Assembly (NCBI GenBank): GCA_028818225.1
Contig: JAPPOG010000051.1
Coordinates: 1-64,000 of the forward strand
Origin: Gammaproteobacteria bacterium
Lineage (GTDB): Bacteria > Pseudomonadota > Gammaproteobacteria > Pseudomonadales > Pseudohongiellaceae
DNA: 64,000 nt
Direction: 5' to 3'
The position numbers and the translations under genes are program-made. Shown here one piece after another: positions 31,914 to 56,180 of the stretch. Each line of letters opens with the position of its first letter. Within the stretch, counting starts at the first letter, position 1. Below the pieces are notes generated by a model. The model was not told the DNA's origin and did not search any database. It saw nothing but the letters and a program-made list of their open reading frames with translations.

Positions 31914-32912
31914 ATGAAAACAATAATTCGAGTTTGTGGCATTTGCCTAGGTTCATTGGTGGCAATATCTTCACTGCAGGCACAGGTTGATAGCAATTAC
32001 GAGATTCCCCGAACTATTGATGGCCACCCAGACCTGCAAGGTGTTTGGGAAAACAACACAATTACTCCGGTTGAAAGACCCGATGTATTTGGAGACAAAG
32101 AGTTTCTTACCGACGAAGACTTGGACTTTCTCCGCGCTGGGTTAAACTCGATCGAGACTGCTGGTGATGACGCGCTTTTTGGTGAAGGTGTAATTCAGGC
32201 AATATTCGAAGGAGAAATTAATTCCTATGACCCAAGCACCGGAAATTATGATTCTCAATGGATGGCGCCGCGCACGATCCATCGTCGAACTTCGCAGATT
32301 ATCGATCCACCGACGGGCAAGTACCCACCACGTACTGAAGAAGCGATCGCTGCAGCTCGAGATTTAAGAGAGCATCGACGACTGCATCCTGCCGATTCCT
32401 GGACAGATCGACCACTGGGTGAAAGATGCCTGAGTTTCGGAGCACCGCGCTTGAGTTCGGGCTATAACAGCTATTGGCAAATCGTCCAATCGAAAGAAAC
32501 AGTCGCCATCATTCAGGAAATGGCACACGATGTCCGTATCGTTCCAATTGTTGCAAAACCACACCTAAATGAAAACGTAAAGCTCTGGCATGGTGACTCC
32601 AGAGGCTGGTGGGAAGGCGATACACTGGTTGTAGAAACCACTAATTATTCGGAAGCCAGTAGTACCAGCCCGCGAACCGTAGAAAAAGTAAATATAGAGC
32701 GCCTAACCCGAATCGGTGAAAACGCTTTACAGTATCAGTTTACTTCCAGTGACCCCGGCAGTTATACCGCATCATATACGCGTGAAATTATTTTTGACAA
32801 AACTCCAGACAAGATTTATGAATACGCTTGTCATGAAGGTAACTATGGTATGGAGTACATCCTTTCCGGGCATCGCGCTGAGGAAAGACTGGCGGCAGAA
32901 GCAAACGATTAG
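31914..32912 (+). CDS. Exported protein of YEYACHEGNY family, subgroup A
   Basis: 332 aa, signal peptide; DGHPDLQGVWENNTITPVERPDVFG, LWHGDSRGWWEGDTLVVETTNYSE, YEYACHEGNYGMEYILSGHRAEE. Paralog of 52491-53456. Confidence 0.75.
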   Translation: MKTIIRVCGICLGSLVAISSLQAQVDSNYEIPRTIDGHPDLQGVWENNTITPVERPDVFGDKEFLTDEDLDFLRAGLNSIETAGDDALFGEGVIQAIFEGEINSYDPSTGNYDSQWMAPRTIHRRTSQIIDPPTGKYPPRTEEAIAAARDLREHRRLHPADSWTDRPLGERCLSFGAPRLSSGYNSYWQIVQSKETVAIIQEMAHDVRIVPIVAKPHLNENVKLWHGDSRGWWEGDTLVVETTNYSEASSTSPRTVEKVNIERLTRIGENALQYQFTSSDPGSYTASYTREIIFDKTPDKIYEYACHEGNYGMEYILSGHRAEERLAAEAND

Positions 32913-32977: not shown

Positions 32978-35479
32978 CTATCTCAATTGTTCAGCTATAC
33001 CTTCAAGAGTTGAGGCTAATGAAAGATACCTGGCACGGCTACGGCCAGTACGATCAATACCTAAATCTTCCATTTCTTCTGCCAATTCAGCAAAATCATT
33101 TGCCAGACCCCTATTACTGGAATTGCTCCCTAATAATCTATCAGCCTGATCCAAAGCTGCATTGAGTTGGAGAACCAGCCCACTATCAATAACATTGCTT
33201 CGCTGAAGCTGATCCATATAGGCTCTTGCAACTACAGGCACATCTGGCCATGTTACCCGCTCCTGGGTCTGCGCATTGACCGTAAGGTCTGCATCTTTCA
33301 AGGAAGCCGCTGCAATTTCATTCGTCGTCATAAAATCACTAGGTTCTAGTGCAAATACATCCAGTCCACGGGCGATTTCAGTGCCATAGATATGTCCACC
33401 ATACCAGTAAGTAGACCAGTACCCGGCAGTGATCAACTCTTCTTCATCCAGGGGGCCACGATCGAAGAAAGCGATCTCCACGGGATTTGCAGAATCGGTG
33501 AAATCAACTACTGAAACGCCACCTTGATACCATGCTTGCACAAAGATATCCCGACCTGGCACTGGAATGAGCGAGCCATTGTGTGCCACGCAGTTTTCAG
33601 TATCCGTCTGTGGTGCTGACAGCTTGTAGTGAGAGCGAAATTCCAGCTGCCCGTCAACAATGTCATAGAAAGCATCTGCTCCCCATGTCACCGGATCCGA
33701 AGCGCGGCAGCGTGGTCTGCCGCCGCCGCCCCATTCATCGGTAAAGATCACCTTGGTGCCGTCATTATTAAAGGTTGCGGAGTGCCAGTAAGCAAAGCCG
33801 GGATCTACAACCTGATCGATTCTCTCAGGGTTTGCCGGATCAGAAATATCCAAAAGAATGCCGTTTCCAGAACAAGCTCCGGCTGCTAATCCGATTTCAG
33901 GAAAGGTTGTGATGTCATGGCACTGATTGGTTTCGCTGGTACGCTGAGTATCAGGGCCATGATCCCCACCTTCCCAAAGACCGGCAAGCACACCAGTATC
34001 CGGGTCAGAAAATATAAATGGGCGATTGACGATGCGCGCATCCTGTGGTCTGTCCATTGGAATTTCGATGACTTCAATTCTAAACAAAGCGGATTCTGGA
34101 TTTTCAAAAGGTGAATCATCAGAACATCCAGCCAACTCCTCATCGTCCCGCACACCCGAAGTGCCAGAAACGTAAACATAGGCAATATTATTGTCATCGG
34201 GTTGACTAACCACTGTATGAGTATGAGATCCACGACAGGTTTGTACGGCTCCTACCTGGATTGGCATAGTGAAGTCACTTACATCAAAAATTCGAATGCC
34301 ACGAACGCGCTCCTGGCTGTTTGGCTCAGGAACACCTTCCAGGCCACAATCCAGTCTTCCACGAGTTTCCTGCACTGACATAATCAGCAAATTACCCATC
34401 AGTGAAACATCGCCCTGGCCTCCGGGACAAACCACAGAACTAATATGCTGCGGCATTGCGGGATTGCTGATGTCATAAGTATTAAAGCCATGATAATTGC
34501 CCGCTACCAGATAATTACCACTGAACAACAGATCAGTATTAGAAAAACTCAATAGAGAAGGACGGGGATCGGCATTTTCATCTTCTTCCTCGTCTTCATC
34601 CGCAGGTGTTTCTGCCAAAGCGCTTGCCGCATCGGGTGAAGTGACTTCTTCGGCGTCTGAGTCTGCTTCGGCATCATCGGGATCTAATGTTTCTTCTGAC
34701 TCTCGTCGATTAGGCAGGCCCGAGGGATTATCTGGATCGAAAAAGCCATCTGGCTTGGGAAGTGATGCGACCAATTGCAGATTGAGTGATGCTTCGCCAG
34801 CATCACGAAACCCAGGTTCCAGATTCACTCGAGGATCGGGAGAAAAACCTGCCAACATTAAATCCATACGATCGATTTCAGCACTCTGGTCTGAAGTAAC
34901 ATCAGAAGTGAATGCATAAAGCACCGGATCTTGTGCCGCACCTCTCTGGTCCAGCAAGTTCTCAACCATTTCCAGCGCACCTTCATGATGCTCAATCATG
35001 AATTCAAGAAACAGACGATCGAATTCATCCCCTGCTGCCGCTTCCAGTTGCGCAAAATCTTCATCACTGAGCATACCCGGCATAAGGTCATAATCGTCAG
35101 CATGGTGAGCATCCATACCTGGGACGTCCAGACCACGATCACGCAACCAATCTAGCATCATGGAAATTTCATCTTCCTGGGAAAGTGAAATACGCTCAGC
35201 CAGCAATTCCATTGCCTCTCTGTTTGAACGGGAAGCAACCAAAGCTGACATCTCCATGGCCTGGGCATGGTGTGAAATCATTCCTTGCAGAAACATGACA
35301 TCACCAGCGGAGTACTGGATACTGGCCAAATCGGCAGCTTCCTCAGCTGTGATTATGCGACCGGGTTGACCAGGCGCGCCAGGCTGAATAATTGGCACTT
35401 GCGCAAGGCTTTGGCTTGTGGCGAACCCAGCAGCAACAACAAGTAATAAGGATGAAAATTTGGTGTAAACGGTTTTCAT
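32978..35479 (-). CDS. DUF305 - LVIVD-repeat fusion, exported
   Basis: 833 aa, signal peptide; DUF305 motifs MFLQGMISHHAQAMEMSALV and EFMIEHHEGALEMVENLL; acidic linker; propeller-type repeats (NYHGFNTYDISNPAMPQHISSV, IRIFDVSDFTMPIQVGAVQTC). Confidence 0.85.
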   Translation of the reverse strand: MKTVYTKFSSLLLVVAAGFATSQSLAQVPIIQPGAPGQPGRIITAEEAADLASIQYSAGDVMFLQGMISHHAQAMEMSALVASRSNREAMELLAERISLSQEDEISMMLDWLRDRGLDVPGMDAHHADDYDLMPGMLSDEDFAQLEAAAGDEFDRLFLEFMIEHHEGALEMVENLLDQRGAAQDPVLYAFTSDVTSDQSAEIDRMDLMLAGFSPDPRVNLEPGFRDAGEASLNLQLVASLPKPDGFFDPDNPSGLPNRRESEETLDPDDAEADSDAEEVTSPDAASALAETPADEDEEEDENADPRPSLLSFSNTDLLFSGNYLVAGNYHGFNTYDISNPAMPQHISSVVCPGGQGDVSLMGNLLIMSVQETRGRLDCGLEGVPEPNSQERVRGIRIFDVSDFTMPIQVGAVQTCRGSHTHTVVSQPDDNNIAYVYVSGTSGVRDDEELAGCSDDSPFENPESALFRIEVIEIPMDRPQDARIVNRPFIFSDPDTGVLAGLWEGGDHGPDTQRTSETNQCHDITTFPEIGLAAGACSGNGILLDISDPANPERIDQVVDPGFAYWHSATFNNDGTKVIFTDEWGGGGRPRCRASDPVTWGADAFYDIVDGQLEFRSHYKLSAPQTDTENCVAHNGSLIPVPGRDIFVQAWYQGGVSVVDFTDSANPVEIAFFDRGPLDEEELITAGYWSTYWYGGHIYGTEIARGLDVFALEPSDFMTTNEIAAASLKDADLTVNAQTQERVTWPDVPVVARAYMDQLQRSNVIDSGLVLQLNAALDQADRLLGSNSSNRGLANDFAELAEEMEDLGIDRTGRSRARYLSLASTLEGIAEQLR

Positions 35480-37022: not shown

Positions 37023-38003
37023 CTACCTGACGGTCACTGTCACTTCGGAATAAGTTGTGTAAGTCGAATCGTCCGCATAGGCCCGCAGTATATATGTTCC
37101 GCTCTGGCTAAATGTCGCAGTCGCAACAACTTCCTCACCAGCTGGATCTAATTCAGCCACGTCATTGTCGATAAAAACCTGTCCGGGGCCTCGATACTTT
37201 ATCCAGGTCACTGCCAGTCCGGTTTTATCCGCAGCTGCATAATTTACAACATCTTGTTCTTTTGGAGAGTTACGGCCAATGCCTCCACCAACTTCCGGCA
37301 ACCGGTTAGGTAACTGATCCATGCGCCCCCTGCGCTCACGTTCATAGGGGCCGGGAACGCCATCATCGGCAGCAAACGCTCGCAAATTGATGGCCTGTCC
37401 CACCTGCGCCGATACAGCGCCTTCGATGCCAACCAGACGCACGGCAGGTCTTTGATTGGCATACTCCACTTCAGTACGCCCTCCTGTTCCCCTACCCCGG
37501 TTAGCACTCCATACACCTTCATCGATAGCCCAGATATTTTCTCTTTCCAGAGTGCCAACGGCCGTTCTCGTTTCCCCATTGTGGGTAACCGACCAGATTA
37601 ACTCGTTACCAATAAAGTCTGCCGGCAAGGTGACACCGAACACAAATTGTTGGCGACGTGGGTAAAAGTAAGTTGGCTGGCCCCGATCCTGTGCACCAGG
37701 ATTACTGAGTAGCAAACTCCTGTCCAGCGGCCCTGCTGTATTCACGCCATCGGCTGCGTAAAAGGCGTTGTTATCACCTATTTCAATGGTAGGTTTTTCA
37801 TCGTAATTGCGGTTGAGATAACCAAACCACATGGTGAAGCTACCATCATTATTGCGCTCGAAACCTTCATAAATTGGCTGAATACTTTGTCCGAATCGAT
37901 GCAGAGTCTGAGCGACCGCCAGCGAGGAATTTAATAGAAGCAGCAGCGCCATGAAGGCGCCGCATGTATATCGAATTTTCATTTCCAGTTTTCGAACTAA
38001 CAT
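37023..38003 (-). CDS. Exported hypothetical protein, likely co-transcribed with the cytochrome c/PHM-like gene
   Basis: 326 aa; probable start at internal MKIRYTCGAFMALLLLLNSSLAVAQ; beta-rich, FTMWFGYLNRNYDEKPTIEIGDNN, C-terminal Ig-like VVATATFSQSGTYILRAYADDSTYTTYSEVTVTV; 33 bp downstream of 38037-39344. Confidence 0.7.
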   Translation of the reverse strand: MLVRKLEMKIRYTCGAFMALLLLLNSSLAVAQTLHRFGQSIQPIYEGFERNNDGSFTMWFGYLNRNYDEKPTIEIGDNNAFYAADGVNTAGPLDRSLLLSNPGAQDRGQPTYFYPRRQQFVFGVTLPADFIGNELIWSVTHNGETRTAVGTLERENIWAIDEGVWSANRGRGTGGRTEVEYANQRPAVRLVGIEGAVSAQVGQAINLRAFAADDGVPGPYERERRGRMDQLPNRLPEVGGGIGRNSPKEQDVVNYAAADKTGLAVTWIKYRGPGQVFIDNDVAELDPAGEEVVATATFSQSGTYILRAYADDSTYTTYSEVTVTVR

Positions 38004-38036: not shown

Positions 38037-39344
38037 CTAATCGCTCCCTGAGTTTATCTGGGAAAACCGTTCTTCAACGGCTGCCTCGTACTCTTCATCG
38101 GTCAGTTCATAGTAACTAATCCAGGAGAAAGACATGTCATCGGTGGATCTCTGTCCAAATCCAACCCAGTTTCTCGAATCCCCTGCCCAGGGATTGGATG
38201 GGGAATTGTTGTACCAGCTTGTTACATGCAACATCGATCCTTTTGGTATCAAGGGTTGCACATCTTCGGCATAGTTATAGGCAATGTGCCAGCCAAAATC
38301 CCAATCGGCACAACTTAAAGTCTGACGGCGATTATCCTGGTAAATAACTTCGATACACTGACGTGTCCCGAGATTATGTAAATGAGGCTGGAATGTGGTT
38401 ATACGAATATTCTTGTCCAGGAATTCGTAACCGTCGGTTCGAATTGCGGCTTCACCACCCGGCAAATCCAAATCCTCATTGTCCGCCATGTGGGCACGAA
38501 TCAATTCGTGCTCAGGCTCTTCGCCCTTGGGTAGGAACCAGAGCGCCAAACGCGTTCGATCTGTTCTATCGAGACCATCCGGGCTGGAGGCATAGTGAAC
38601 ATTCCAGATTAATCGCGTGCCGGCCTTAATTAGCTGCCCGGTGCCCGGCGGATTAATATCGGCTGTCTTGCCCAGCGCGTATTCGCTGAGAAAGCCACCG
38701 CCGCCCTCCGGGAATTCCATGGACGTCACTGCGTGATGCACAACAGGAAACCCTTCTGCCGACGGCTTGGTTTCAAACGCCTTGATCCAGCGGTCTTCGG
38801 TTAACCCGGTATCGCTGTAAAAAGTCATCCACCAGTTTGGTCCATCCGCAGGAACCATGAAAGGTTCTGGGATTGGTATGATCAGATCAGGTGGACGCCC
38901 CATTTCGTCTTCAAGGGTCCATGCCACACTGTCCTCAAATTCAGGCACTGCAGGTAAATTGCTGATATCACCCTGCGGCGATCCTGCATCAACCCAGGCG
39001 GCGATGGTCGCTATTTCCTCATCGGTGAGAGATCGGTCATCTTCAAATGACTGCACACCGACTGTCTTGTCAATAAAGTACGGTGGCATCTTGCGCCTGA
39101 CTACTCGGTCCTTGATTACCGGACCCCAGGCTCGAACAGTTTCATAATCTATAAGGGTCATGGGCGCTATCGACCCAGGTCGATGGCACTCTACGCAGTT
39201 TTCATAAATTATTGGCGCTACATGATCGACAAAGTTAGGCTCTGTAGCTTGTTGAGCAAATACCATAGGAGCAAAACAAACTCCCAGACAAACCGCCACT
39301 TTTCTTATGCTTATCACTTGGCAACCTCCCGCTAATTTCGACAT
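38037..39344 (-). CDS. c-type cytochrome fused to PHM/DBM-like copper type II monooxygenase fold
   Basis: 435 aa; heme site APIIYENCVECHRPGSIAPM with KMPPY; C-terminal Cu-ligand motifs FPVVHHAVTSMEF, LIWNVHYASSPDG, TTFQPHLHNLGTRQCIEVIY, RSTDDMSFSWISYY. Confidence 0.85.
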   Translation of the reverse strand: MSKLAGGCQVISIRKVAVCLGVCFAPMVFAQQATEPNFVDHVAPIIYENCVECHRPGSIAPMTLIDYETVRAWGPVIKDRVVRRKMPPYFIDKTVGVQSFEDDRSLTDEEIATIAAWVDAGSPQGDISNLPAVPEFEDSVAWTLEDEMGRPPDLIIPIPEPFMVPADGPNWWMTFYSDTGLTEDRWIKAFETKPSAEGFPVVHHAVTSMEFPEGGGGFLSEYALGKTADINPPGTGQLIKAGTRLIWNVHYASSPDGLDRTDRTRLALWFLPKGEEPEHELIRAHMADNEDLDLPGGEAAIRTDGYEFLDKNIRITTFQPHLHNLGTRQCIEVIYQDNRRQTLSCADWDFGWHIAYNYAEDVQPLIPKGSMLHVTSWYNNSPSNPWAGDSRNWVGFGQRSTDDMSFSWISYYELTDEEYEAAVEERFSQINSGSD

Positions 39345-39555: not shown

Positions 39556-40371
39556 ATGACCAGTCTCTCAACTCAGGCCACAATTCGCTATCTGATTCCG
39601 GGTCCGGAAAAACCCGTCTATTTTGCATCGGAGGGCGGCGCCAGTGCCCAGCTCAATATCAATGCCGAATTCGAAGATGTGCAGGTGAATATTCATGACG
39701 CCAGAGAACTCGACCCGCCAGCCACTCTCGACCATGAAGGTTTTCAATTGCACAAACACAAAAGTGCGATTAGGAATTTTTACTCGATCGCAAGTGAAAA
39801 AGAAATTTACCAGACTGAATTGGCTGAACTGGTGTTGCCAATAGTTGGGGCCAGTTCACTGTTCGTGTTTGACCACACACTCAGATCTGATTCTTCCGAA
39901 GTAAGAGAGGCAAAGCAGACGCGAGAGGCCGCGGCGATAATTCACAATGACTATACCAATGCCTCGGCAAGAAAACGAGTCAGGGATTTATTAGAGCCAG
40001 ATAAAGCAAAAGCAAGATTGCTAAACAGATTCGCCATCATCAATGTCTGGCGTTCTATCTCGGGCACAGTATTAAGGTCACCTCTTTGCTGTTGCGATGC
40101 GCAATCGGTTAATGAAAAGAATGTGTTTGCCAGCGAACGGGTTGCCAAGGACAGAGTCGGAGAACTGGAACTGGTCAGCCATAACCCGGCTCACAAATGG
40201 TATTACTATCCTGAAATGCAAGCTGATGAGGTGCTATTAATTAAAACTTTTGATTCGGCAACTGATGGCAGAGCTACCCGATCAATTCATACTTCCTTCC
40301 ATAATCCGCTGGCACCAGAAGATGCCCCTCCCAGGGAGAGTATGGAGTCTCGCATGCTGGTTTTCTTCTAA
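39556..40371 (+). CDS. CmcJ/NvfI-family oxidoreductase
   Basis: 271 aa; IHNDYTNASARKRVRDLL, RFAIINVWRSISGTVLRSPLCCCDAQSV, SHNPAHKWYYYPEMQADEVLLIKTFDSATDGRATRSIHTSFHNPLAPEDAPPRESMESRMLVFF. Confidence 0.85.
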   Translation: MTSLSTQATIRYLIPGPEKPVYFASEGGASAQLNINAEFEDVQVNIHDARELDPPATLDHEGFQLHKHKSAIRNFYSIASEKEIYQTELAELVLPIVGASSLFVFDHTLRSDSSEVREAKQTREAAAIIHNDYTNASARKRVRDLLEPDKAKARLLNRFAIINVWRSISGTVLRSPLCCCDAQSVNEKNVFASERVAKDRVGELELVSHNPAHKWYYYPEMQADEVLLIKTFDSATDGRATRSIHTSFHNPLAPEDAPPRESMESRMLVFF

Positions 40372-40818: not shown

Positions 40819-41943
40819 TTAGCGTACCGAGTACTTGGTAAACGCTCCACCCGCCCAACTCAGAGAGTTAGGACCTTCGGCAGCATAAACATCACCGTCA
40901 GCATCGACTGCAACACCCTCTCCCGCCGTACCCTGATAGACACGGTCTGGTCGTTCGAAAGGAGGAATGAATCCGGTAATCCGATCTTCATCAATATGAC
41001 CGATGCGAATGCCGTTACGCCAGCCAACGTGATTGGTTGGACTGGATTCAGAATCGATAGCATAGACCAGGTCATTGTCTGTTATGAATATTCCACTGAT
41101 GCGTCCATAAGCGTAACGAGATTCGAGGTAGTTTCCATCCTGGTCGAAAATTTCTAGACGATGATTACCGCGATCTGCCACCCACAGACGTCCTTTGGAA
41201 TCGAATTCCATGGCATGGGGAGTTCTGAATTCGCCATGACGAACACCAATTTGTCCCCATTCTTTAATAAAAGTGCCATCTGGCGCGAATTTCAAAATGC
41301 GCGCAGTCTGGCCGCTGGCCCTGCCTTCTTCCATAGCGGCATTAGAAGTCATGCCTTGACCATTGTGCCCATCTGATACATAGATACTACCGTCTGGACC
41401 AACAATGACATCGTTTGGCTGATTAAACTGGTTAGCACCAGATCCCGCCTGGCCCGGGGTACCCAGGCTCAGCAACAACTCACCGTCGGCGCTGAACTTA
41501 TGTACCTGGTGGCCTTTGGTGCCATCCGCATTGCCGGCAAAATCTGTTACCCACACATTCCCCTCGTGGTCGGCATGAATGCCGTGAGGTGTTTGCATGA
41601 GTCCGCCGCCAAAATTCGCCAACACTTCACCAGTGTTGCGATCAAATTTGAATATAGGATCAACCGGATTGGTATCGCAGTTAATTGGCACACCGCCGCC
41701 AAAGCTGCTTGCACCGCAGCGCTCATAGGCCCATACGTGTCCATCAGTAGGATCAATATCAACACCAGCCGTTGAACCCCATTCGCGTCCAGCAGGTAAT
41801 TCACCCCAGTTTTGGGTCACGATAGGATTCGGGTTAGGTAAGCCTGTGCCCGAAATTGCGTTTCCTGATTGTGCAGAAACTATCCCGGAAGTCAGGGCTG
41901 GCAATACTGCCGCCAGAATTACTTTCTTGGATAACATATCCAC
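40819..41943 (-). CDS. Peptidyl-alpha-hydroxyglycine alpha-amidating lyase (PAL)-like NHL-repeat protein, exported
   Basis: 374 aa, signal peptide; TPHGIHADHEGNVWVTDFAGNADGTKGHQVHKFSADGELLLSLG, NQFNQPNDVIVGPDGSIYVSDG, RHGEFRTPHAMEFDSKGRLWVADRGNHRLEIFD. Confidence 0.82.
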   Translation of the reverse strand: MDMLSKKVILAAVLPALTSGIVSAQSGNAISGTGLPNPNPIVTQNWGELPAGREWGSTAGVDIDPTDGHVWAYERCGASSFGGGVPINCDTNPVDPIFKFDRNTGEVLANFGGGLMQTPHGIHADHEGNVWVTDFAGNADGTKGHQVHKFSADGELLLSLGTPGQAGSGANQFNQPNDVIVGPDGSIYVSDGHNGQGMTSNAAMEEGRASGQTARILKFAPDGTFIKEWGQIGVRHGEFRTPHAMEFDSKGRLWVADRGNHRLEIFDQDGNYLESRYAYGRISGIFITDNDLVYAIDSESSPTNHVGWRNGIRIGHIDEDRITGFIPPFERPDRVYQGTAGEGVAVDADGDVYAAEGPNSLSWAGGAFTKYSVR

Positions 41944-47292: not shown

Positions 47293-48318
47293 TTAATCGT
47301 TTCCTTGTCCCTGGGCCTCTCTATGTTCGCGCTCCCGAACCCGCGCTCCCATCAGTGTTGCCGACATGGCGTAGTTTCCTTCATGACAGGCATATTCGTA
47401 AGGCACCTGATCAGATTTAGGCCAAACAAACTCTCCCCCATAGGAGTCTGTGTAATCCGCATCATTAACCATGAAGCTATACAGAAGGCCACCATCACTG
47501 ATTGGCGTGAATCGTTCGGTTACTGTGCGATCGGCCGGTTGGTAAGGCTGATCCAGGAAATTAGTAGTTTCAACAACTAGCGTATCGCCTTCCCACCAAC
47601 CGATTGAATCTCCATCAAAAGTCGCCAGATCAGCAGATTTATGATTCTCATCATCAATACGAATAATGCGCGCCCAGTGCATCCATTCGATATAAATCAT
47701 CATGTACTCATCGGTTTGCACAATGGTCTTAAGGTTATTGTAAACCAAAGGCCTGATTGGAATGGATGCGGCACCTGTATAAATGCAGCGAACCCCAAGA
47801 GTTTGGTTTTCAGGACCATCGTAAGGCTGGTCTCCAGTCTCTAACCACCAGGCGCCATCTCTCTCTGGCCAGGCAAATTTTGGTGCAGCATCTGCTTTGG
47901 CCTGACCCTCACTTGTTCTTGCTGGCATACGGCCGTTTTCCGGGTAAGTTAGAATTGAGGTTCGATAGCGACCATCGATAGTAAATCCATCATTTCCGCG
48001 GTCGAACCAGAAATCGTTATAGGAGCCGATATTGCCTCCCGCTTCTGGTGCTCCTCTCTCCGGGTCACTGGGATCAGCATCGTTGGCACGAATTCCCATC
48101 TCACGATCCCGTAAAGCTTGTACTTCTTCTTCTGTCAGGTAGAGCCGATCGCCATAAGCTGTCGGCCGCTGAAAAGGAGTAAGACTGGAAATATCATAAT
48201 TGCCATTAAAGTCCGGTTTGCCCGACGCGGTTCTGGGAAAGTCGTCCTGTGCGGTGACAGAGGCGGGTGCCAATAAAATGGGTATAGCAGTAAATAAGAG
48301 CTTTAAGATGGTCTTCAT
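47293..48318 (-). CDS. Exported protein of YEYACHEGNY family, subgroup B
   Basis: 341 aa, signal peptide; FPRTASGKPDFNGNYDISSLTPFQRPTAYGDRLYLTEEEV, GDSIGWWEGDTLVVETTNFLDQPYQPADRTVTERF, YEYACHEGNYAMSATLMGARVREREHRE. Close paralog of 55161-56180. Confidence 0.75.
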   Translation of the reverse strand: MKTILKLLFTAIPILLAPASVTAQDDFPRTASGKPDFNGNYDISSLTPFQRPTAYGDRLYLTEEEVQALRDREMGIRANDADPSDPERGAPEAGGNIGSYNDFWFDRGNDGFTIDGRYRTSILTYPENGRMPARTSEGQAKADAAPKFAWPERDGAWWLETGDQPYDGPENQTLGVRCIYTGAASIPIRPLVYNNLKTIVQTDEYMMIYIEWMHWARIIRIDDENHKSADLATFDGDSIGWWEGDTLVVETTNFLDQPYQPADRTVTERFTPISDGGLLYSFMVNDADYTDSYGGEFVWPKSDQVPYEYACHEGNYAMSATLMGARVREREHREAQGQGND

Positions 48319-52490: not shown

Positions 52491-53456
52491 ATGGTCAAAA
52501 AGAGTTTGTTGCTGCTAATTACCATGGGTGGAATGGCAGCTGCGTATGCGCAGGAAACTAACTGGGAACAACGCACTGCAGATGGGCACCCCGATCTGCA
52601 GGGTGTTTGGGGAAATAACACCATTACTCCCGTGGAGAGGCCGGACAGATTTGGCGAACGTCAATACCTGACGGAAGAGGAACAGACGCTTCTGCAGCGA
52701 CGTATTAGTGAAATCACCCAGGAAGGAGGCGATGCATTATTTGGAGATGGTGTATTCGATGCAGCATTTTCTGGCGAAGTTATATCTTACGACCCTTCCA
52801 CCGGGAATTATGATCAATCATGGTTGGTAGAACGCTCAGTTCATAACAGGACCTCCCAAATAATCGACCCTCCTGATGGCAAGTTTCCACCGCTCGTCGG
52901 AGATTCGGATGGACTAACCTTTAATCGTCCACAACGAGGCAACACCGCACCTTCTTCCTGGACAGATTTAACCGTTGATGATCGCTGCATAAGTTATGGC
53001 GCACCCTATTTAAACGCCGGTTACAACAGTTACTGGCAAATTGTGCAATCGAGGAATCATGTGGTAATTGTGCAGGAAATGATGCACGACGCGCGTATTG
53101 TTCCATTAATAGAGGGCCCGCAGTTGGACGATAAGATTCAACTCTGGCACGGCGACTCAAGAGGCTACTTCGACGACAATACCCTTGTTGTTGAAACTAC
53201 AAATTTTTCCGGTAAAAGCACTTTCGGCCATAATCGCTCGAGAAAAAATATTGAACGATTTACCCGCCTGAATGAAAACCAATTGCTTTATCAAATTACA
53301 GTAGATCAGCCAGACACCTACAGCACACCGTATACGCGGGAATTTATTATGGATTTCACGCCGGACCCCATTTACGAATACGCATGCCATGAAGGTAACT
53401 ACTCCATGGCAAATATTCTTAGAGGAGCCAGGGTTCAGGAAGGTTCTATTGAGTAG
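52491..53456 (+). CDS. Exported protein of YEYACHEGNY family, subgroup A
   Basis: 321 aa, signal peptide; DGHPDLQGVWGNNTITPVERPDRFG, ALFGDGVFDAAFSGEVISYDPSTGNYDQSW, YEYACHEGNYSMANILRGARVQE. Confidence 0.75.
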   Translation: MVKKSLLLLITMGGMAAAYAQETNWEQRTADGHPDLQGVWGNNTITPVERPDRFGERQYLTEEEQTLLQRRISEITQEGGDALFGDGVFDAAFSGEVISYDPSTGNYDQSWLVERSVHNRTSQIIDPPDGKFPPLVGDSDGLTFNRPQRGNTAPSSWTDLTVDDRCISYGAPYLNAGYNSYWQIVQSRNHVVIVQEMMHDARIVPLIEGPQLDDKIQLWHGDSRGYFDDNTLVVETTNFSGKSTFGHNRSRKNIERFTRLNENQLLYQITVDQPDTYSTPYTREFIMDFTPDPIYEYACHEGNYSMANILRGARVQEGSIE

Positions 53457-55160: not shown

Positions 55161-56180
55161 CTATTCCTCGGATCCGTTTTGTTCTCTATGTTCTCTTTCC
55201 CTGACACGAGCTCCCATTAAAGTAGCAGACATCGCATAATTACCTTCATGGCAGGCATATTCATAGGGCACCTGATCTGATCTGGGCCACACCATTTCGC
55301 CGGCATACCTGTCCGTGTAATCGACATCCTCTACGTCAAAGCTATAGATTAATCCACCTCCCGGCTCGGGGGAAAATCTCTCTACTATTTTTTTGCCATC
55401 AGAGGGCTGATAAGGCTGATCCATGAAATTGGTAGTCTCAACCACCAGGGTATCGCCCTCCCACCATCCGATAGAATCACCGTCAAAGGTGGCGAGAACT
55501 TCCGAATTATGTTCGTCACCTATACGAATTATTCTCGCCCAGTGCATCCATTCTATGTACAACATTAAATAATCATCAGTTTGCACAATCGTTTTCAGGT
55601 TATTGTAAACCCGCGGTGTAATTGGAATGGTCGCAGGCTGATGATAGATACAGCGTACGGCGAGAGTTTGATTTTCTGGGCCATCATAGGGTTGATCCCC
55701 GGTCTCCAACCACCAGGCACCATCTCTCTCTGGCCAGGCAAATTTTGGCGCTGCATCCGCTTTCGCCTGCCCCGCTGGAGTCCTGGCTGGCATGCGGCCG
55801 TTTTCAGGATAAGTCAAAATAGAAGTCCTGTACTGGCCATCAATAATGAATCCGTCGTTGCCGCGATCAAACCAGAAATCATTATAGGAACCAATATTTC
55901 CGCCTTCTTCTGGCGCTTCGCGATCAGGATCACTAGCGATTGCATCCTGTTCCCGGATACCCATCTCACGATCGCGCAAAGACTGTACTTCTTCCTCATT
56001 CAGAAAAAGCCGGTCGCCATAATCACGCGGCCGTTCGAACGGAGTCAGAGTTGAGATGTCGTAGTGACCGGTAAAATCAGGTTTACCCGAGGGAGTACGA
56101 GGATAATTATCTTGAGCATTTCCAAGTAGAGGCAATGCCATTGGGACTGATAAAGTGACTACAACTAATATTTTTTTCAT
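55161..56180 (-). CDS. Exported protein of YEYACHEGNY family, subgroup B
   Basis: 339 aa, signal peptide; YPRTPSGKPDFTGHYDISTLTPFERPRDYGDRLFLNEEEV, GDSIGWWEGDTLVVETTNFMDQPYQPSD, YEYACHEGNYAMSATLMGARVREREHRE. Confidence 0.75.
   Translation of the reverse strand: MKKILVVVTLSVPMALPLLGNAQDNYPRTPSGKPDFTGHYDISTLTPFERPRDYGDRLFLNEEEVQSLRDREMGIREQDAIASDPDREAPEEGGNIGSYNDFWFDRGNDGFIIDGQYRTSILTYPENGRMPARTPAGQAKADAAPKFAWPERDGAWWLETGDQPYDGPENQTLAVRCIYHQPATIPITPRVYNNLKTIVQTDDYLMLYIEWMHWARIIRIGDEHNSEVLATFDGDSIGWWEGDTLVVETTNFMDQPYQPSDGKKIVERFSPEPGGGLIYSFDVEDVDYTDRYAGEMVWPRSDQVPYEYACHEGNYAMSATLMGARVREREHREQNGSEE

Follow-up and report, generated by a model that had tools for sequence, protein, structure and literature searches.

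A c-type cytochrome fused to a DBH/PHM-type dicopper core, with a linked partner gene and many paralogs in a Pseudohongiellaceae genome

The window analysed here is a stretch of 64,000 nucleotides from a gammaproteobacterial genome of the Pseudohongiellaceae. The open reading frame claimed at 38037-39344 by a previous sequence-only reading is present at exactly those coordinates on the minus strand, and stops abound on the plus strand across the same interval. This gene, hereafter the fusion gene, encodes 435 residues; its description relies on the open reading frame, a profile match to DBH, an AlphaFold model and Foldseek matches to DBH/PHM. The first 30 residues (39255-39344), which end in CLGVCFAPMVFA before QQ, resemble an export signal in the translation and have a pLDDT below 50 in the model; the N-terminus of the fusion protein is thus predicted to be export-like, of the Sec type. 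Directly downstream and in the same orientation lies a second gene (37023-38003, minus strand), referred to below as the partner, which encodes an exported Ig-like beta-sandwich protein of 326 aa.

The motifs quoted in the sequence-only reading (CVECH, KMPPY, VVHHAV, NVHYAS, PHLHNLG and STDDMSF) were all located, and their succession along the chain is that of the PHM/DBH ligands. The first two belong to a c-type cytochrome domain matched by PF13442 (about residues 35-120, 38985-39242). CVECH (residues 50-54, 39183-39197) is the heme c attachment site, with C50, C53 and H54, and M86 of KMPPY (39087-39089) would be the axial heme ligand by analogy with cbb3-type cytochromes. The other four motifs lie in a DBH/PHM-like dicopper core made of two domains (roughly residues 150-415, 38100-38897), recognised by the profile and by Cu2_monoox_C. 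The Cu_H ligands are H203-H204 of VVHHAV (38733-38738), aligned with the HH of DBH, and H250 of NVHYAS (38595-38597), aligned with VHYHN of DBH. The Cu_M ligands are H321 and H323, i.e. the HxH of PHLHNLG (38376-38384), aligned with QLHTHLTG of DBH, and M404 of STDDMSF (38133-38135), which is outside the reach of the DBH sequence alignment and was assigned from its order, its context and the coverage of Cu2_monoox_C. The copper ligands of DBH itself are His262/263/333 and His412/414/Met487 (PMC4846438).

Then, we investigated the conservation of these positions in an alignment of 64 sequences, the most distant being about 27% identical, drawn from 41 loci on genome contigs and 22 paralogs of the window's own genome. 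C53, H54, M86, H203, H204, H250 and M404 are each present in 64 out of 64 sequences. C50 is found in 62/64, the other two rows being one truncated and one ambiguous, while H323 is found in 63/64 and H321 in 62/64 (one ambiguous base and one real loss). The remaining His, Met and Cys of the fusion protein are conserved in 2-88% of the 64 sequences. The motifs are therefore not due to chance. Non-conservation in homologs had been named beforehand as the observation that would speak against a fused dicopper enzyme; among these 64 sequences, the heme site, KMPP and the six copper ligands are essentially invariant. The real loss concerns paralog L064 (6163-7926, minus strand), which has R and N at the HxH of Cu_M (R-M-N) and keeps the heme site, Cu_H and the Met. 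It is a natural ligand-loss variant, probably a decayed or altered copy.

Searched as a single sequence against Pfam, the fusion protein matches Cytochrome_CBB3 (PF13442) at residues 45-118 with an E of 0.0073, below the cut-off, and Cu2_monoox_C (PF03712) at residues 309-419 with an E of 0.022 (14.7 bits vs. a cut-off of 23). The same scan gave no match to PF01082, the N-terminal DBH domain. These sub-cut-off scores reflect the reach of the models rather than a structural feature of the protein. From the 58 homologs examined, 38 match PF13442 (best E 2.7e-5), and the best E for Cu2_monoox_C is 4.4e-5. Likewise, the single sequence gave nothing convincing by sequence against the PDB, whereas the profile of 58 homologs has human DBH (4zel) as its best match (E 4.4e-5), and a profile of the core without the heme domain retrieves DBH at an E of 2.8e-5. 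In these profile matches, HH, HY and HxH, i.e. all five His ligands, align with the same motifs of DBH. The AlphaFold model, built from the same homolog alignment as the PDB profile search, has a mean pLDDT of 87.1 and a pTM of 0.82, the core being mostly above 90. Compared by Foldseek with 350,542 PDB chains, it retrieves exclusively DBH/PHM at ranks 1-31 (E 3.8e-13 to 1.5e-8, TM on the target up to 0.66), followed by unrelated sandwiches with a TM of at most 0.2. The overall rmsd to DBH/PHM is mostly 4-8 Å, which would fit an altered angle between the two core domains. Homology, fold and ligands firmly place the C-terminal two thirds of the fusion protein within the DBH/PHM dicopper monooxygenase superfamily. 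The proposed combination of a c-type cytochrome with a PHM/DBH-type dicopper core in an exported protein is supported by profile, fold and conservation; in the suggested HMM search for PF03712, PF01082 and cytochrome c domains, both halves are supported by the homolog profiles, with the protein's own matches below threshold and PF01082 unmatched.

DBH (dopamine beta-monooxygenase or dopamine beta-hydroxylase, which makes noradrenaline) and PHM (peptidylglycine alpha-hydroxylating monooxygenase) are classic animal enzymes of the copper type II, ascorbate-dependent monooxygenases (PF01082/PF03712), with two copper sites about 11 Å apart; the long-range electron transfer from Cu_H to Cu_M is still debated. 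The fusion protein resembles them in its core of two beta-sandwiches, in having the same six copper ligands in the same succession and in being exported. It differs by being bacterial, by its many copies, by its linked partner gene and by the lack of both the peptide-binding Arg of PHM and the DBH/PHM disulfides. The pattern of the core disulfides is absent, the only Cys beyond those of the heme site and the signal segment being C330 and C345, which are present in 45/64 sequences. What is new compared with DBH/PHM is the putative electron source, the partner gene and the expansion. In both DBH and the fusion protein, an additional N-terminal domain precedes the core: DOMON in DBH, a c-type cytochrome here. 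DOMON has the fold of a cytochrome domain without heme (PMC4846438), so that the fusion protein parallels DBH with what would be a working heme module.

This parallel can be read in two ways. DOMON provides a precedent for a non-donor at the same N-terminal place, and the heme domain could serve for docking, for sensing or as a terminal electron sink in front of a real monooxygenase core that receives its electrons from a small molecule or another cytochrome. We consider this reading unlikely. The heme site and the Met of KMPP show the same invariance as the copper ligands in all homologs, even in the distant clade with a redoxin-like domain described below, which argues for a heme function tied to the copper chemistry.

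Reduction of a bacterial copper monooxygenase by a c-type cytochrome is known for LPMOs, with less H2O2 by-product than with ascorbate (PMC8981238). In the Cellvibrio Cbp2D/CjX183 system, as proposed here, the reductant is an exported c-type cytochrome (PMC8981238); however, LPMOs are mononuclear histidine-brace enzymes without homology to this dicopper core, and their cytochrome is on a separate protein. The heme domain also resembles the small cbb3-type cytochromes c (PF13442), with a KMPP-type Met motif after CxxCH, but it is short, divergent, below the cut-off and, in the set studied, always fused to the dicopper core. Our search of the open literature, with subscription journals largely outside its scope, found no description of a bacterial cytochrome-DBH fusion or of its partner, and no homolog with tested activity.

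The partner has no Pfam or NCBIfam family, and some of its homologs show weak PKD-type matches only. Its model consists of beta-sandwich domains (pLDDT 82.5), for which Foldseek returned generic Ig-like matches only. The invariant residues are G, P, N, D, W and F, with no His, Cys or Met; the partner therefore bears no obvious sign of being a metal or redox protein. We examined 67 fusion genes for a partner homolog in the same orientation and at most 400 bases away, and found one for 50 of them, downstream in 44 cases and upstream in 6. Of the 17 others, some lie at the end of a contig and some within tandem arrays, and the rest belong to lineages devoid of the partner. Conversely, searching the source genome with the partner profile retrieved 11 full copies, each of which adjoins a fusion gene (11/11), plus one fragment at a contig end. 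The pairing is also found in Acidobacteriota and Gemmatimonadota. That the two genes stay together in three phyla, whichever of them comes first, strongly indicates a joint function.

The 3.47 Mb source genome contains 23 fusion genes, i.e. this gene and 22 paralogs. To judge from how its nearest relatives are named, the window belongs to the OM182/Pseudohongiella group. Uncharacterised homologs, which had been anticipated, are plainly found in many genomes: fusion genes are carried by every one of the 46 genus members searched and by 78 out of 99 genomes of the family, usually in at least about 8-18 copies per genome. Beyond the family they are rare. Among other Gammaproteobacteria they were detected in 4 out of 273 genomes, including a weak cytochrome-only match, and among other members of the phylum in 2 out of 398; they also occur in Acidobacteriota (Vicinamibacteria) and in one Gemmatimonadota MAG. 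No homolog of the fusion gene was found in the plasmids searched. In the tree, the window gene groups with Acidobacteriota sequences and not with the paralogs of its own genome. The subfamilies are therefore old or were transferred.

A second architecture is displayed by seven paralogs of about 580-640 aa, which form one clade (support 99) and possess an extra N-terminal AhpC/TSA- or redoxin-like domain (identified by domain scan in three of them and by eye in the other four). The catalytic cysteines of this domain are inconsistent and poorly conserved, and the clade is devoid of the partner gene. L060, L061, L062, L063, L064 and L067 are such triple fusions, combining a redoxin/AhpC-TSA-like domain, a cytochrome c and a dicopper core. 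Paralogs L065 and L066 have neither the redoxin-like domain nor the partner gene. The sequence-only reading mentions neither this second architecture nor the partner gene and the large paralog family.

The copper and heme could also serve another task, such as the handling of copper or of O2/H2O2, an oxidase or peroxidase activity, or redox signalling, the DBH fold being re-used. Beyond the partner gene, no consistent catabolic operon surrounds the examined loci, and the peptide-binding residues of PHM have no evident counterpart, with Q319 instead of an Arg two positions before the first His of HxH; both observations would suit such a task. Nevertheless, the Cu_H and Cu_M ligand sets are complete and invariant, and many diverged copies that keep their ligands suit a diversification of substrates better than a single housekeeping role. 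We therefore regard a function other than hydroxylation as quite unlikely.

A third reading, bacterial peptide amidation, would make the PHM-like gene and an NHL-propeller gene (40819-41943, minus strand) the counterparts of animal PAM, with the NHL protein as the PAL lyase. The NHL protein has a relative in the PAL part of animal PAM (E 3.8e-24 vs. rat PAL, 3fvz), its gene has the same orientation at a distance of 1.5 kb, and NHL homologs are near 16 of the examined loci. However, it scores other NHL propellers above PAL, its third zinc His is apparently missing (by eye), and an NHL gene is near just 2-3 of the 23 fusion genes vs. about 1 expected. On the side of the monooxygenase, PHM binds its peptide through Arg240, Asn316 and Tyr318, the Arg just before HxH binding the peptide carboxylate. 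The position that matches this Arg is Q319, occupied by Q in 45/64 sequences and by R in 7/64. As the peptide-binding Arg is absent, peptide amidation is unlikely. As the NHL gene is not generally linked and has better matches than PAL, the PAM-like system was dropped, and we judge it highly improbable.

We consider it probable that the fusion protein acts as an exported dicopper monooxygenase of the DBH/PHM type, is reduced via its fused c-type cytochrome, works with its partner and has been amplified for many substrates. The sub-threshold Pfam matches, the missing core cysteines, the ligand loss in L064, the weak enrichment of PQQ dehydrogenases nearby and the literature search, which yielded no homolog with tested activity, count against this reading. 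Located in the periplasm or at the cell surface, it would bind heme and copper; ccmE, involved in cytochrome c maturation, is present in the source genome. The fused heme would take up electrons from a dehydrogenase or from the pool of c-type cytochromes in the periplasm and pass them to Cu_H, from which they would reach Cu_M. DBH, whose ligand set is the same, uses two electrons and O2 at Cu_H/Cu_M (PMC4846438). In the fusion protein, Cu_M would likewise activate O2 and also bind the substrate, one oxygen being inserted into an organic C-H bond and the other being released as water. Ascorbate would not be needed, since the fused heme would be the reductant. The Ig-like partner may hold the substrate, position or dock the enzyme, or anchor it at the surface, and the most simple explanation for more than 20 copies would be that different copies act on different substrates. 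If this is true, a covalently attached and optically visible donor would make the transfer from Cu_H to Cu_M directly measurable, a plausible chemistry (periplasmic C-H hydroxylation) would be available for a large protein family of little-understood marine genomes, and a function for the unnamed partner family would be brought within reach.

More tentatively, and with somewhat less than even confidence, we propose that these proteins form a class of ascorbate-independent dicopper C-H hydroxylases with a heme in cis and a dedicated exported partner, multiplied in marine Pseudohongiellaceae and Acidobacteriota. In the Pseudohongiellaceae, it would constitute a periplasmic toolkit of 10 to 25 members oxidising dissolved organic matter. 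The sister clade HTCC2089 possesses numerous oxygenases and is suspected to degrade algal metabolites or hydrocarbons (PMC8371827). This would fit the idea of a substrate toolkit, without testing it.

Finally, we looked for other genes recurrently found near the fusion loci. The recurrent neighbours belong to the PQQ dehydrogenase, NHL propeller and 'PDLSG' families, of which the source genome contains about 50 PQQ-type dehydrogenases, 15 NHL propellers and about 50 'PDLSG/PDLQGVW' genes. A PQQ gene is located within 6 kb of 9 fusion genes vs. 4.6 expected, and the figures for NHL and 'PDLSG' are similar. These families are so numerous that their proximity is only weakly above chance, and we do not claim them as parts of the system; three adjacent same-strand pairs alone suggest real operons. 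A hydroxylate-then-dehydrogenate pathway is tempting, since PQQ dehydrogenases would fit as the next step, but given this weak enrichment we do not include it. No match to PqqD was found in the source genome, which has an extreme repertoire for periplasmic oxidation and is possibly dependent on external PQQ.

Several other genes of the window deserve mention. An exported family with about 50 copies in the genome and no Pfam match over the cut-off is represented at 31914-32912 (plus strand), 47293-48318, 52491-53456 and 55161-56180. The gene at 32978-35479 (minus strand) encodes an exported protein of 833 aa that contains a ferritin-like domain (DUF305) and weakly matches the LVIVD repeat. Between two minus-strand genes, the plus-strand gene at 39556-40371 encodes a protein of 271 aa without Pfam match, which may resemble the CmcJ/AsaB-type oxygenase-like proteins.
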